Shown piece after piece: positions 43,570 to 56,092 of a DNA stretch of 64,000 bases; position 1 is the first letter of the stretch; each line of letters begins with the position of its first letter. The translations under genes and the position numbers were made by a program. The DNA comes from Brevibacillus brevis (GTDB taxonomy: Bacteria; Bacillota; Bacilli; Brevibacillales; Brevibacillaceae): positions 3,752,501 through 3,816,500 of the forward strand of contig NZ_CP041767.1 of NCBI RefSeq assembly GCF_022026395.1, in the 5' to 3' direction. The notes below the pieces were generated by a model. It searched no databases. It saw only the letters and a program-made list of their open reading frames with translations, and was not told where the DNA came from.

Positions 43570-43875
43570 TATCGGCAATTCATTGCATTCATAAACGGCC
43601 AAGTCCCCGCTCTGCCGTTGACCTCATGTTTCTATAACCTGCGCTCACACAGGTGGGCGACCCTTCTGCACTTCAGCCTTCCCATGCATCCAAAAAGGAG
43701 GTGGGCCTGACATCCATCACAGTTTCCGTCTCCCAAAAAACACGTATAAGGTTAGAAACATTTACGGCCTATCGTACATCGCAGGATCTTGATATCCCTA
43801 CTTTAACACAGAATGGTCCATTGCTCAACGGATAAAGTTCCCTTTGGACTTTTCCGAGCGCAAAATAGCCTATCG
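43570..43875. other. 306-base gap without a convincing gene
   Basis: There is a good AAGGAGGTGG near 43693, followed by a frame encoding about 42 residues that ends at 43835, but only CTG or ATC codons stand at the correct distance, so I do not call it. Nothing else was seen. Confidence 0.5.
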
Positions 43876-53867: not shown

Positions 53868-55133
53868 TTACGCAGATTCAAGAACAGGGAAGCAGCGCAC
53901 TTCTAAGCCAAAATCATTTTTCAACAAAGACTCATGCTCTTCACTGATTCCTGTCACGATCAAGCCTGCGCGCAAGACGCCACCCAAATCGAATTGGACT
54001 TTTAGCTTATGTACGTTCACTCCTGCCTGCTGAAGGAAATGCAAGACTCGGTCTGGCGTCGCAGTATGACATGAGCCCTCAAGATAACACAGGACGTGTT
54101 CTGCCGAGTCCGATGTAGCTCCAGCTTTGTCAGCCGTTTTTTCTTTCCAGGTAGGATGCGGCGTGAATGGCTGTGTCAATAAATAGGCCAAATCCTCCAC
54201 GACTGCACTTGCTGTAGGAAGCTCTCCCGCCCCTCTTCCTGTAAACAGCAAGTCTCCCACGATGTTGCCGGATAGCTGGACAGCATTAAATGCGTCGTGG
54301 ATTTGCGCCAACGGATGGCTCAGCGGAAGCATGGTTGGTTCAACAGATAGGCGAATTCCTTTCTCAGCTTGATAGGCCTGTGCGATCAGCTTGATCCGAT
54401 ACCCCAGCTCGCTTGCAATCCGAATGTGACCTGCTGACAAATCTGCAATTCCTTTACGAACAACATCCGCTAAAGGCAGCGATTCTCCGTAAACAAGCTG
54501 TGCCAAGATATACAATTTGTACATAGCATCGAAGCCTTCTACATCCGAACGAGGGTCTGCTTCCGCATAGCCCAGCTCCTGCGCTTGCTTGAGCACCTCC
54601 TGATATGAGAGCTGCTCTGCTTCCATTTTCGTCAAGATGAAGTTCGTTGTTCCGTTGAGAATACCGCGAACACCTTGGATATCATTCGTGCGAAGGAACT
54701 GCCTCAGCACACTCAAGATCGGGATGCCCCCTGCCACACTCGCTTCATAGGCAAGATGCACTTGATGCTGATTTGCCAAATCGACTAGCTCTGTTCCTTT
54801 TTTCGCCAGGAGCTCTTTGTTGGCAGTTACCACATGGCAGCCCTTTTTGATCAAAGCACGAACGTAGTCATAGGTAGGTTCTACACCGCCCATGACCTCC
54901 ACCACGATATCCACATCGCTTCTCAATACATCCTCAAAATCTGTTGTCAATAAAGCCGGGTCGACATGAACCGCCCGCTCTTTTTCCGAGTCACGCACCA
55001 ATGCCTTGACGATCTCAATTCGTTTTCCCAGACGAGTAGCCAGCTTCTCCTGTTGCGAGCGAATCGTTTTGATTACGCCTCCACCCACTGTCCCCAATCC
55101 CAATAATCCTACGCGTACCACTTCTGCACTCAT
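53868..55133 (-). CDS. hom: Homoserine dehydrogenase
   Basis: 421 residues. An N-terminal NAD(P) fold begins VRVGLLGLGTVGGGV, then VEVMGGVEPT, TANKELLAKKG, ASVAGGIPIL (catalytic Lys/Glu region), GILNGTTNFILTKM and AEADPRSDVEGFDAMYKL; the C-terminal ACT domain is present (about 340-421). It makes homoserine, the branch point to threonine and methionine. The ATG at 55133 follows GGGGTGG. It is preceded by two SAM-I riboswitches, which puts it under SAM repression. Bacillus subtilis hom is not known to be an S-box gene. Confidence 0.95.
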   Translation of the reverse strand: MSAEVVRVGLLGLGTVGGGVIKTIRSQQEKLATRLGKRIEIVKALVRDSEKERAVHVDPALLTTDFEDVLRSDVDIVVEVMGGVEPTYDYVRALIKKGCHVVTANKELLAKKGTELVDLANQHQVHLAYEASVAGGIPILSVLRQFLRTNDIQGVRGILNGTTNFILTKMEAEQLSYQEVLKQAQELGYAEADPRSDVEGFDAMYKLYILAQLVYGESLPLADVVRKGIADLSAGHIRIASELGYRIKLIAQAYQAEKGIRLSVEPTMLPLSHPLAQIHDAFNAVQLSGNIVGDLLFTGRGAGELPTASAVVEDLAYLLTQPFTPHPTWKEKTADKAGATSDSAEHVLCYLEGSCHTATPDRVLHFLQQAGVNVHKLKVQFDLGGVLRAGLIVTGISEEHESLLKNDFGLEVRCFPVLESA

Positions 55134-55162
55134 TCTAACCACCCCATACCCCGAATTTTGGA

Positions 55163-55199
55163 TAAAAAGAAAAAGCCATCTTCGATAAGAAGAAGGCTT
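55163..55199 (-). terminator. Terminator of the proximal SAM-I riboswitch
   Basis: On the minus strand AAGCCtTCTTC and GAAGAtGGCTT arms with a 5-base loop, then TTTTTCTTTTT. It lies 30 bases before the hom start and is the expression platform of the second S-box. Confidence 0.85.
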
Positions 55200-55220
55200 G
55201 TAAGTAGCTAATGCTCCCCC

Positions 55221-55331
55221 TCCTTATCTCCCAGGACGTATATGTCCTGCAGGAATTGGCACCTTGTCACAAAATATGCGTGACGGTTGCCGGGCTTCAT
55301 CGGGCCAGTCCCTCCACCTCTCTGGATAAAG
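55221..55331 (-). promoter_or_regulatory. SAM-I riboswitch (S-box), proximal copy
   Basis: The minus strand contains all S-box core elements: GATAAAG.. P1 strand, GAGAGGTGGAGGGACTGGCCC, GATGAAGCCCGGCAACC, a variable stem, then AAGGTGCCAATTCCTGC and the closing P1 strand CCTTATC/GATAAAG. It binds S-adenosylmethionine and then favours the terminator at 55163-55199. It is the second in line before hom. Confidence 0.93.
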
Positions 55332-55344
55332 AAAATATGAAATT

Positions 55345-55373
55345 AAAAAACCTTCTTCGCTAAGAAGAAGGTT
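55345..55373 (-). terminator. Terminator of the distal SAM-I riboswitch
   Basis: AACCTTCTTC and GAAGAAGGTT form a perfect 10-bp stem with a 5-base loop, followed by six T and an AT-rich tail on the minus strand. Confidence 0.88.
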
Positions 55374-55395
55374 CATCTACCAATGGAGTAACCCG

Positions 55396-55503
55396 CTTCT
55401 TATCTTTCGAGACGAAACGTCTCGCAGGAATTGGCACCTTGTCGCTATATGCAACGGTTGCCGGGCTTCATCGGGCCAGACCCTCCACCTCTCTGGATAA
55501 GAA
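55396..55503 (-). promoter_or_regulatory. SAM-I riboswitch (S-box), distal copy
   Basis: Same core as the proximal copy: GAGAGGTGGAGGGTCTGGCCC, GATGAAGCCCGGCAACC, a short variable arm, AAGGTGCCAATTCCTGC, with P1 TTCTTATC pairing with GATAAGAA. The two copies are alike in the core but differ in the P3/P4 loops. It is the first to be transcribed and has its own terminator. Confidence 0.94.
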
Positions 55504-55524
55504 CCATTTATGCTGTTGAGCTTT

Positions 55525-55553
55525 ATTCTAAGAAATTCCAAGGCAAGCGTCAA
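55525..55553 (-). promoter_or_regulatory. Sigma-A promoter of the SAM-riboswitch-hom unit
   Basis: On the minus strand TTGACG (55553-55548) and TAGAAT (55530-55525), spacer 17 bases. It starts transcription about 15-20 bases before the first aptamer. Confidence 0.75.
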
Positions 55554-55598
55554 CAAAATTCTTTCTTTTCTGATTGCAAGCTGATTTTGGCAAAGCTT

Positions 55599-55736
55599 TC
55601 AGTTGTAGGTGAACAGGCTTTCTACCTCTTCCATACTGCAGCAAGTGCAATGAAACACGCCCTCGTGGCAGTCCTCAGGCAGCTCCTTTTCCTCAACATA
55701 TCCGCACCATTGGCAAATAAAAACTTGAATCATCAT
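55599..55736 (-). CDS. 45-residue zinc-ribbon-like protein behind a cobalamin riboswitch
   Basis: MMIQVFICQWCGYVEEKELP begins the protein. Cysteines lie at 8, 11, 23, 30, 32 and 33 and His at 24 and 29, arranged as CxxC ... CH ... HCxCC, which looks like a zinc or cobalt site. No membrane helix or signal. The ATG at 55736 overlaps the previous ORF's TGA and is preceded by GAGGAGGAGGG, a strong site, so translation is coupled to it. It lies between the cobalamin riboswitch and the hom promoter. I do not know a named family. A cobalt, zinc or B12-related role is only suggested by the riboswitch. Confidence 0.6.
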   Translation of the reverse strand: MMIQVFICQWCGYVEEKELPEDCHEGVFHCTCCSMEEVESLFTYN

Positions 55737-55861
55737 ACGCCCTCCTCCTCTTTTATCCTGCCCAAAATAAAAAAAGCATTTTCCGCTCGACCGTGACGAT
55801 CGTTAGAAAATGCCAGAAAAGGAGGGACGTACTTGTCCACTCGCTGTTTTTCGCAAGCCAT
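55733..55861 (-). CDS. 42-residue ORF running through the cobalamin-riboswitch terminator
   Basis: ATG 55861 follows TAGGGAGGTG by 7 bases, at the end of the cobalamin aptamer. The product is basic and hydrophilic (MACEKQRVDKYVPPFLAFSN, then ..AENAFFILGRIKEEEGV). Its coding region includes the intrinsic terminator at 55764-55813, so translating ribosomes would cover or melt it. The stop TGA overlaps the next gene's ATG. This could be a leader peptide, a real small protein, or chance; I favour leader or uncalled small gene, at low confidence. Confidence 0.4.
   Translation of the reverse strand: MACEKQRVDKYVPPFLAFSNDRHGRAENAFFILGRIKEEEGV
55764..55813 (-). terminator. Terminator of the cobalamin riboswitch
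   Basis: On the minus strand GCATTTTC and GAAAATGC arms (55776-55783 and 55806-55813) with an inner CGA/TCG hairpin, then TTTTTTTATTTT. It is the expected OFF structure when B12 is bound. Confidence 0.85.
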
Positions 55862-55884
55862 CTCTAACACCTCCCTATCTCCCG

Positions 55885-56092
55885 TAGGTCTATCAGTGTT
55901 GTCGAAACAGGCAGGTCTCCTGACTATGGGTTCATCGTCTAGCGTCGCCTTCCCCGTCTATTTGGATAGACCAGTGGCTTGTTGGACGCTGACTCCCCTC
56001 TTACAGTGGCGGGACCGTGTCGGATTTGCACCGAGCTTCCCTATTATCCTTGGGGCGAATTGGTAACGCCCTAAGGAACCTGTTTCCACCTA
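55885..56092 (-). promoter_or_regulatory. Cobalamin (adenosylcobalamin) riboswitch
   Basis: The minus strand has the conserved sequence GGTGCAAATCC region (CGGTGCAAATCCGAC), the GCCACTGTA core, and the B12 box AGTCAGGAGACCTGCCTG at the 3' end, with TAGGT/ACCTA closing P1. It sits 31 bases after the DinB-like gene. The aptamer is followed by the 55764-55813 terminator and two small ORFs. Confidence 0.92.

Follow-up and report, generated by a model that had tools for sequence, protein, structure and literature searches.

Architecture of the locus

The window is a 64,000-nucleotide stretch of Brevibacillus brevis (contig NZ_CP041767.1, positions 3,752,501 to 3,816,500), taken from a genome of 6.16 Mb in one contig that carries seven cobalamin riboswitches. 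Read 5' to 3' on the minus strand, the locus consists of a DinB gene, a cobalamin riboswitch, its platform and terminator, the gene of a mini-protein (hereafter the mini-gene), a sigma-A promoter, two SAM-I riboswitches and hom:

56708-56124, minus strand: DinB-superfamily gene, directly upstream of the cobalamin leader (PF12867, 82.5 bits)
56098-55893, minus strand: cobalamin riboswitch aptamer of the mini-gene (RF00174, Rfam, 117 bits)
55770..55875, minus strand: expression platform of the cobalamin switch, antiterminator and then terminator (fold and motifs)
55870-55733, minus strand: first small ORF with a GTG/ATG start, probably not a gene (ORF list)
55736-55599, minus strand: mini-gene, 44-45 aa, CxWCGY...CxCC (ORF and conservation)
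55553-55525, minus strand: sigma-A promoter TTGACG-17-TAGAAT of the SAM-SAM-hom unit (motif scan and conservation)
55503-55397, minus strand: SAM-I riboswitch 1 (Rfam, 103.6 bits), with its terminator at 55374-55348
55332-55221, minus strand: SAM-I riboswitch 2 (Rfam, 97.6 bits), with its terminator at about 55198-55174
53868..55142, minus strand: hom, homoserine dehydrogenase (PF00742, PF03447)

According to the ORF list of the window, no gene on the same strand lies directly behind hom. The promoter scan of the window listed none before the cobalamin aptamer, and a -10 element resembling GGTAAAAT was seen by eye before the cobalamin leader in several relatives; transcripts of the DinB gene may also read through into this leader. 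Elsewhere in the window a 6S RNA was recognized at 43600-43790 on the minus strand (70.9 bits against a cut-off of 46.4). Comparisons were made over 39 genomes, namely 26 of Brevibacillus (the window's own included) and 13 of sister genera.

The SAM-SAM-hom unit

The preliminary description, made from the sequence alone, had placed one B12 aptamer and two complete SAM-I aptamers before hom, and all three were recovered by Rfam above their cut-offs. The two SAM-I copies scored well above the gathering cut-off of 44.4 bits (RF00162). The terminator proposed for each aptamer was borne out by folding, with z-scores of -2.98 for the cobalamin hairpin and -4.18 and -3.71 for those of SAM 1 (-14.2 kcal/mol) and SAM 2 (-11.1 kcal/mol); a simple terminator scan listed the hairpin after SAM 1 alone, one found against 1.3 expected. 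In the window a single gene is thus preceded by two aptamers that both have a terminator of their own, the arrangement of a pseudo-cooperative double SAM-I switch, the other loci being scored on their aptamers.

As a motif the proposed sigma-A promoter is at chance level in the window (one found, 1.3 expected), yet it is retained as TTGACG-17-TA[G/C]AAT, 23-26 nt upstream of the first SAM motif, in all 23 hom loci. Tandem SAM-I aptamers are likewise present in all of these loci (the window and nine others, plus a further 13), and the latter 13 have neither a cobalamin switch nor a mini-gene there. The three remaining genomes of the genus have a paralogous hom only, for which no SAM switch was found. 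A second homoserine dehydrogenase paralogue was noted at G000:C1:1974229-1975179. From this conservation, the promoter, both SAM-I switches and hom are taken to form a self-standing unit across the genus.

The cobalamin riboswitch and its platform

The cobalamin aptamer matched RF00174 over its full length (positions 1-189, E = 1.2e-28, gathering cut-off 31.5 bits). Downstream lie an antiterminator element, GGAGGTGTTAGA, and then a terminator, GGCATTTTCTAAC...GGAAAATGC-T7, and by eye the GTTAGA of the former is able to pair with the TCTAAC of the terminator arm. The longer segment folds at -17.3 kcal/mol and the terminator core at -12.2 kcal/mol. On the basis of this antiterminator/terminator anatomy, the aptamer is predicted to bind cobalamin and to switch expression.

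The platform carries the motifs GAGGTGTTAG ... CATTTTCTAAC, the second within the terminator, which are those of the metE switches. Among the 48 switches with loci at hand, a subset of the genus from which the degenerate switch of genome G007 was left out, both motifs occur in 10/10 mini-gene and 15/15 metE switches and in 0/23 other cobalamin switches, although they were picked after inspection of the metE and mini-gene sequences. One of these 23, which precedes a thioesterase gene in G008, shows the first motif together with a variant form of the second. The antiterminator motif is missing from the degenerate switch of G007 (49.3 bits). In the aptamer tree the 10 mini-gene switches form one group on the metE side, with a support (91/84) that is below the usual mark and a bootstrap that had not settled; the metE switches do not form a single group.

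Within the 15 genomes that have the mini-gene, 10 mini-genes possess their own metE-type switch, that of G008 lies behind a metE switch, that of G007 lies behind the degenerate one, and three have lost the aptamer. In these three (G002, G010 and G013) the aptamer and the start of the first small ORF are deleted directly upstream of a retained mini-gene (loci L010, L015 and L021), and the terminator is left in G002 and G010. Because the aptamer is gone while the terminator stays, the mini-gene of G002 and G010 may be off. From these comparisons the cobalamin switch is assigned to the second small ORF, the mini-gene.

At G000:C1:3278770-3282852, nrdI and metE operons adjoin and are preceded by cobalamin switches whose platforms differ.

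The two small ORFs and the mini-protein

Two small coupled ORFs had been described between the cobalamin and SAM switches. Both exist as open frames and overlap by 4 nt. The first, which starts inside GGAGGTGTTAGA and crosses the terminator hairpin, is probably no gene. Read from the same GTG, it extends to the mini-gene in five of the ten relatives with the switch (window counted) and fails in the other five, being shifted in G006, ending after 30 codons in G021, 6 in G015 and 22 in G003, and running in another frame in G023. Its pN/pS is 0.70 in five close relatives, from 40 differences summed over pairs that are not independent. A leader peptide was rejected because the start region coincides with the antiterminator and the body with the terminator, because only half of the relatives reach the mini-gene, and because the start is deleted in three genomes. 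The first small ORF is probably antiterminator and terminator read as codons, that is, RNA and not a gene.

The Cys-rich product, formerly assigned to the ORF nearest the B12 aptamer, is in fact encoded by the second ORF. This product is MIQVFICQWCGYVEEKELPEDCHEGVFHCTCCSMEEVESLFTYN, possibly with an extra Met in front. The mini-gene was found in 15 of the 26 Brevibacillus genomes and in none of the 13 sister-genus genomes (15/39 overall). Residues C7, W9, C10, G11, C29, C31 and C32 are invariant both in the 15 sequences and in 21 aligned rows, and Y12 and E14 are invariant in the 15 and not quite so in the 21. The pN/pS is 0.32 over all pairs of the 15 and 0.36 in a close clade of eight; the protein of G013 (dN/dS 0.79 against that of the window, on few changes) seems to drift. 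In G015 (L017, 1501 onward) the mini-ORF extends to 77 aa (relative P0005), up to the SAM promoter.

The statement that the mini-protein belongs to no known family held, in that none of the curated families scanned was matched above its cut-off, the nearest being rubredoxin-like and zinc-ribbon models. The rubredoxin-like domain RUBY_RBDX (PF21349) gave 18.3 bits with the protein of the window against a cut-off of 26.5, and 9 of the 15 members match it at E up to 10. Public names of the relatives are inconsistent: nine of the 15 homologous clusters are named, all of them Brevibacillus, and one homologue (P0008) is called SR1P in a public source. The AlphaFold model, with two short strands, is of moderate quality only (pLDDT 71.9, pTM 0.46). 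Foldseek returned nothing for this model at E of 0.001 or better (best E 1.4), and the best hit in a search of solved structures was to one knuckle alone of RPB9 (E 0.054). Through its conserved cysteines, the mini-protein would probably bind one metal ion.

Co-inheritance with metE and the thioesterase

While metH was above its cut-off in all 26 Brevibacillus genomes, metE (TIGR01371) was found at full length in 13, with pieces or traces in four more. The mini-gene is present in 15 of the 17 genomes with metE or its trace and in none of the nine without (counts for both, mini-gene only, metE only and neither of 15/0/2/9; Fisher 1.8e-5, kinship ignored), and against full-length metE only the counts are 12/3/1/10 (p = 0.001). 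Mapped on the MetH tree, presence of the mini-gene needs at least five changes. In five independent pairs metE or its trace went the same way in four, the opposite way in none and did not differ in one (sign test p = 0.125); full metE alone gave about 2.9 agreeing and 0.1 opposing, and the controls nrdI and SAM-hom gave 0/5 and 0.7/5. None of the pair tests is significant, five pairs (4 against 0) being unable to reach significance by themselves. The mini-gene is thus both a client of a metE-type switch and inherited with metE, as would be a member of a metE-type B12 regulon. A link with the B12-controlled nrdIEF was also considered and discarded (14/1/7/4; 0/5 pairs).

A 4HBT thioesterase of the metE type was found in 15 of the 17 genomes with metE or its trace and in none of the nine others. 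In 14 genomes it adjoins metE or its remnant, and in G008 it stands behind a cobalamin switch of its own. G013 lacks it, and G002 retains only its start. These thioesterases are 75-100% identical to that of G007, and their best NCBIfam match, below the cut-off, is YciA. Nine genomes lack mini-gene, metE and this thioesterase and possess more distant thioesterases. One of the nine is G020, whereas in its sister G021 both mini-gene and metE are present, separated by about 0.44 Mb. The thioesterase follows metE behind a B12 switch in loci L107 (3783-4277), L051 (6501-6983) and L083, and in G008 it has a metE-type switch of its own; perhaps, as a guess, a B12-repressed thioesterase handles acyl-CoAs that accumulate once B12-dependent mutases no longer work.

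Several genomes depart from strict coupling. Full metE and thioesterase occur without the mini-gene in G014, full metE occurs with a mini-gene devoid of its aptamer in G002 and G010, and the mini-gene is kept beside a broken metE in G007, G013 and G023. In the sister genera metE is present in 6 of 13 genomes and the mini-gene in none; no Cys-rich mini-gene lies beside metE in these six loci, and a pattern scan of all 16 metE loci gave two hits (G021 and G015) that by eye were taken as chance ORFs. Given the loss in G014, the possibly silenced mini-genes, the broken metE copies and the sister-genus metE without a mini-gene, the mini-protein would be at most a helpful accessory of MetE, and MetE as its partner is put forward tentatively, at somewhat less than an even chance.

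The mini-protein may instead serve the thioesterase or some other function in B12 shortage, which appears rather unlikely. In G007 thioesterase and mini-gene still follow one another despite the decay of metE to a remnant, and among the 15 genomes with the mini-gene the loss of the aptamer (G002, G013 and G010) overlaps that of the thioesterase (G002 and G013; Fisher p = 0.029, with small numbers and two close relatives). Against this, the mini-gene remains open without the thioesterase in G002 and G013, and its association with the thioesterase (13/2/2/9) is looser than that with metE or its trace.

Arrangement in relatives and possible read-through into hom

The mini-gene lies directly upstream of SAM-SAM-hom in 10 of the 23 hom loci, and in 8 of the 23 it does so together with its cobalamin switch. 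The preliminary description had named elements lying far apart in related genomes as grounds for refutation, and this was partly the case. In G003 and G023 the mini-gene is about 12 kb and about 14 kb from hom, respectively, located after a putative ogt (by eye) and before a second cobalamin switch and an ABC transporter; G010 is arranged likewise, with the mini-gene 8 kb from hom and no aptamer. Unrelated places away from hom are occupied in G008, in the order cobalamin switch, metE, mini-gene, and in G007, in the order degenerate cobalamin switch, metE remnant, thioesterase, mini-gene. Nearness to hom is thus common, with direct contact as one arrangement among several, because elsewhere the mini-gene is 8-14 kb off or at unrelated places.

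The second cobalamin switch directly after the mini-gene (L047, 6735-6931; L049, 7198-7389) precedes the ABC transporter and a methyltransferase-like gene. The best matches of this transporter, below the cut-off, include nickel and opine uptake; cobalt uptake is perhaps its function, as a guess. G014 has lost the mini-gene, and what remains ahead of its SAM promoter (L126, about 1000-1050) is, by eye, a short sequence resembling the cobalamin aptamer.

Ten loci were scanned for terminators from the mini-gene stop to the SAM promoter, and none was listed in the nine that have a spacer; in L017 the spacer is taken up by the long ORF. The longer spacer of G021 (L016) contains a hairpin of -13.1 kcal/mol followed by CCGTTTTT, which is terminator-like and was missed by the scan; the other eight are without such a structure. 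Since eight of nine spacers show no terminator, read-through into the SAM leader is possible, and transcripts from the B12 switch could run into SAM-SAM-hom.

It was proposed in the preliminary description that B12 and SAM signals are combined on hom. In its strongest form, this would be a true triple switch, with cobalamin, SAM and SAM aptamers in series, full expression only at low B12 and low SAM (NOR-like) and an incidental mini-ORF. The terminator-free spacers are consistent with it, a cobalamin switch followed by two SAM switches on hom1 has already been published (9% of hom1 with such tandems in Bacillota; PMC12452182), and AdoCbl/SAM-I pairs are known as NOR gates (PMC9481103). A mixed tandem of the NOR kind, however, has neither gene nor promoter between its switches, whereas a conserved mini-gene and the SAM promoter intervene here. 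The promoter stands right before SAM 1 in every hom locus, including the 13 without cobalamin switch or mini-gene; the intervening ORF is under purifying selection and accompanies the cobalamin switch at other places too; and a terminator-like hairpin follows the mini-gene of G021. A triple switch is accordingly considered improbable. Because SAM-SAM-hom is self-standing and a cobalamin switch lies directly before it in only eight of 23 loci, the evidence argues little for a combined B12 and SAM signal beyond the possible read-through.

A probable pair of adjacent transcription units

The locus is best explained, with good though not full confidence, as two adjacent transcription units: a B12-OFF switch of the metE type controlling a mini-gene that is a split-off member of a module, and a SAM-OFF unit of promoter, two SAM-I switches and hom. 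When cobalamin is plentiful, the terminator would form and the mini-gene would be silent; when B12 is scarce, GTTAGA would pair with the terminator arm and the Cys-rich mini-protein would be made, the direction being that of the known class. Comparison of the genomes shows metE, 4HBT thioesterase and mini-protein to be gained and lost largely together, and they are taken as one B12-repressed module from which the mini-gene would have split off. The module stands in a row in G007 and is split elsewhere, most parts having a copy of the switch, which suggests a history of splitting. The SAM-OFF unit occurs without the B12 unit in most genomes of the genus, and where the two meet, transcripts from the B12 switch may run on into SAM-SAM-hom, giving a minor B12-plus-SAM control of hom.

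That the mini-ORF is untranslated and its RNA alone matters, as its very small size and the inconsistent public names might suggest, is most improbable given the pN/pS over the 15 sequences, the invariant cysteines and a frame that stays open in different gene settings.

As for function, it may be guessed that the mini-protein would help MetE, by supplying it with zinc or protecting its thiols, or else the thioesterase, during B12 shortage. It is a more speculative and rather doubtful extension that it founds a family of B12-repressed, metal-binding MetE helpers, produced only where MetE has to take over from MetH, and that a three-gene B12-shortage module (MetE, thioesterase and mini-protein) has been scattered with copies of one riboswitch. 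A tempting three-input switch on hom is in this way replaced by a testable reading, in which the control, the place and the inheritance of a tiny conserved protein are all in line with a role in the shift from B12-dependent to B12-free methionine synthesis.

Comparison with known systems

The mini-protein shares a CxxCGY knuckle and a second CxxC with the rubredoxin-like domain of rubrerythrin (PF21349) and with zinc ribbons, and differs from PF21349 by an extra cysteine (CxCC), a length of 44 aa, a stand-alone occurrence and a score below the cut-off. SR1P, a small Cys-rich GapA-binding peptide of bacilli, is comparable in size and cysteine content; the mini-gene is instead under B12 control, and SR1P was not among the 11 families matched by the 15 members at E up to 10, its model presumably being present in the family library used. 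No paper on the mini-protein was met in the literature searched on B12 riboswitches, MetE and zinc, or Brevibacillus cobalamin switches.

Among the closest systems is B12-controlled metE itself, which has the same platform and belongs to the same regulon as the mini-gene switch; the mini-gene as a further client of this type was not met in the literature searched on B12 riboswitches and MetE. In E. coli, cysteines 643 and 726 of MetE bind the catalytic zinc, and the enzyme loses activity when cysteine 645 is glutathionylated, with weakened zinc binding (PMC521173). As a guess, a Cys-rich mini-protein produced alongside MetE could provide zinc or protect the thiols; a dedicated MetE helper was not met in the literature searched on MetE, zinc, B12 riboswitches and small proteins.

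Among known multiple switches, three AdoCbl/SAM-I pairs, eight SAM-I/AdoCbl pairs tied to metE and 164 double SAM-I switches have been described (PMC9481103). The SAM-I/AdoCbl tandem of Bacillus clausii metE in the same source likewise brings B12 and SAM signals together at methionine synthesis, both OFF. It differs in being one leader on one gene, metE, whereas the Brevibacillus locus would comprise two units, B12 acting on the mini-gene and SAM on hom.

The tandem listed as 'Cobalamin SAM SAM' before hom1, for which contiguity means one intergenic region (PMC12452182, 2025), shares with the Brevibacillus locus the three aptamers, their order and a monocistronic hom. The name Brevibacillus is absent from the main text of that paper. 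There the contiguous switches are taken to act on hom1, whereas a conserved gene and a promoter stand between them in Brevibacillus. The mini-gene, if unannotated, would yield such a listing, which suggests that annotation missing small ORFs could create apparent multi-riboswitch leaders.
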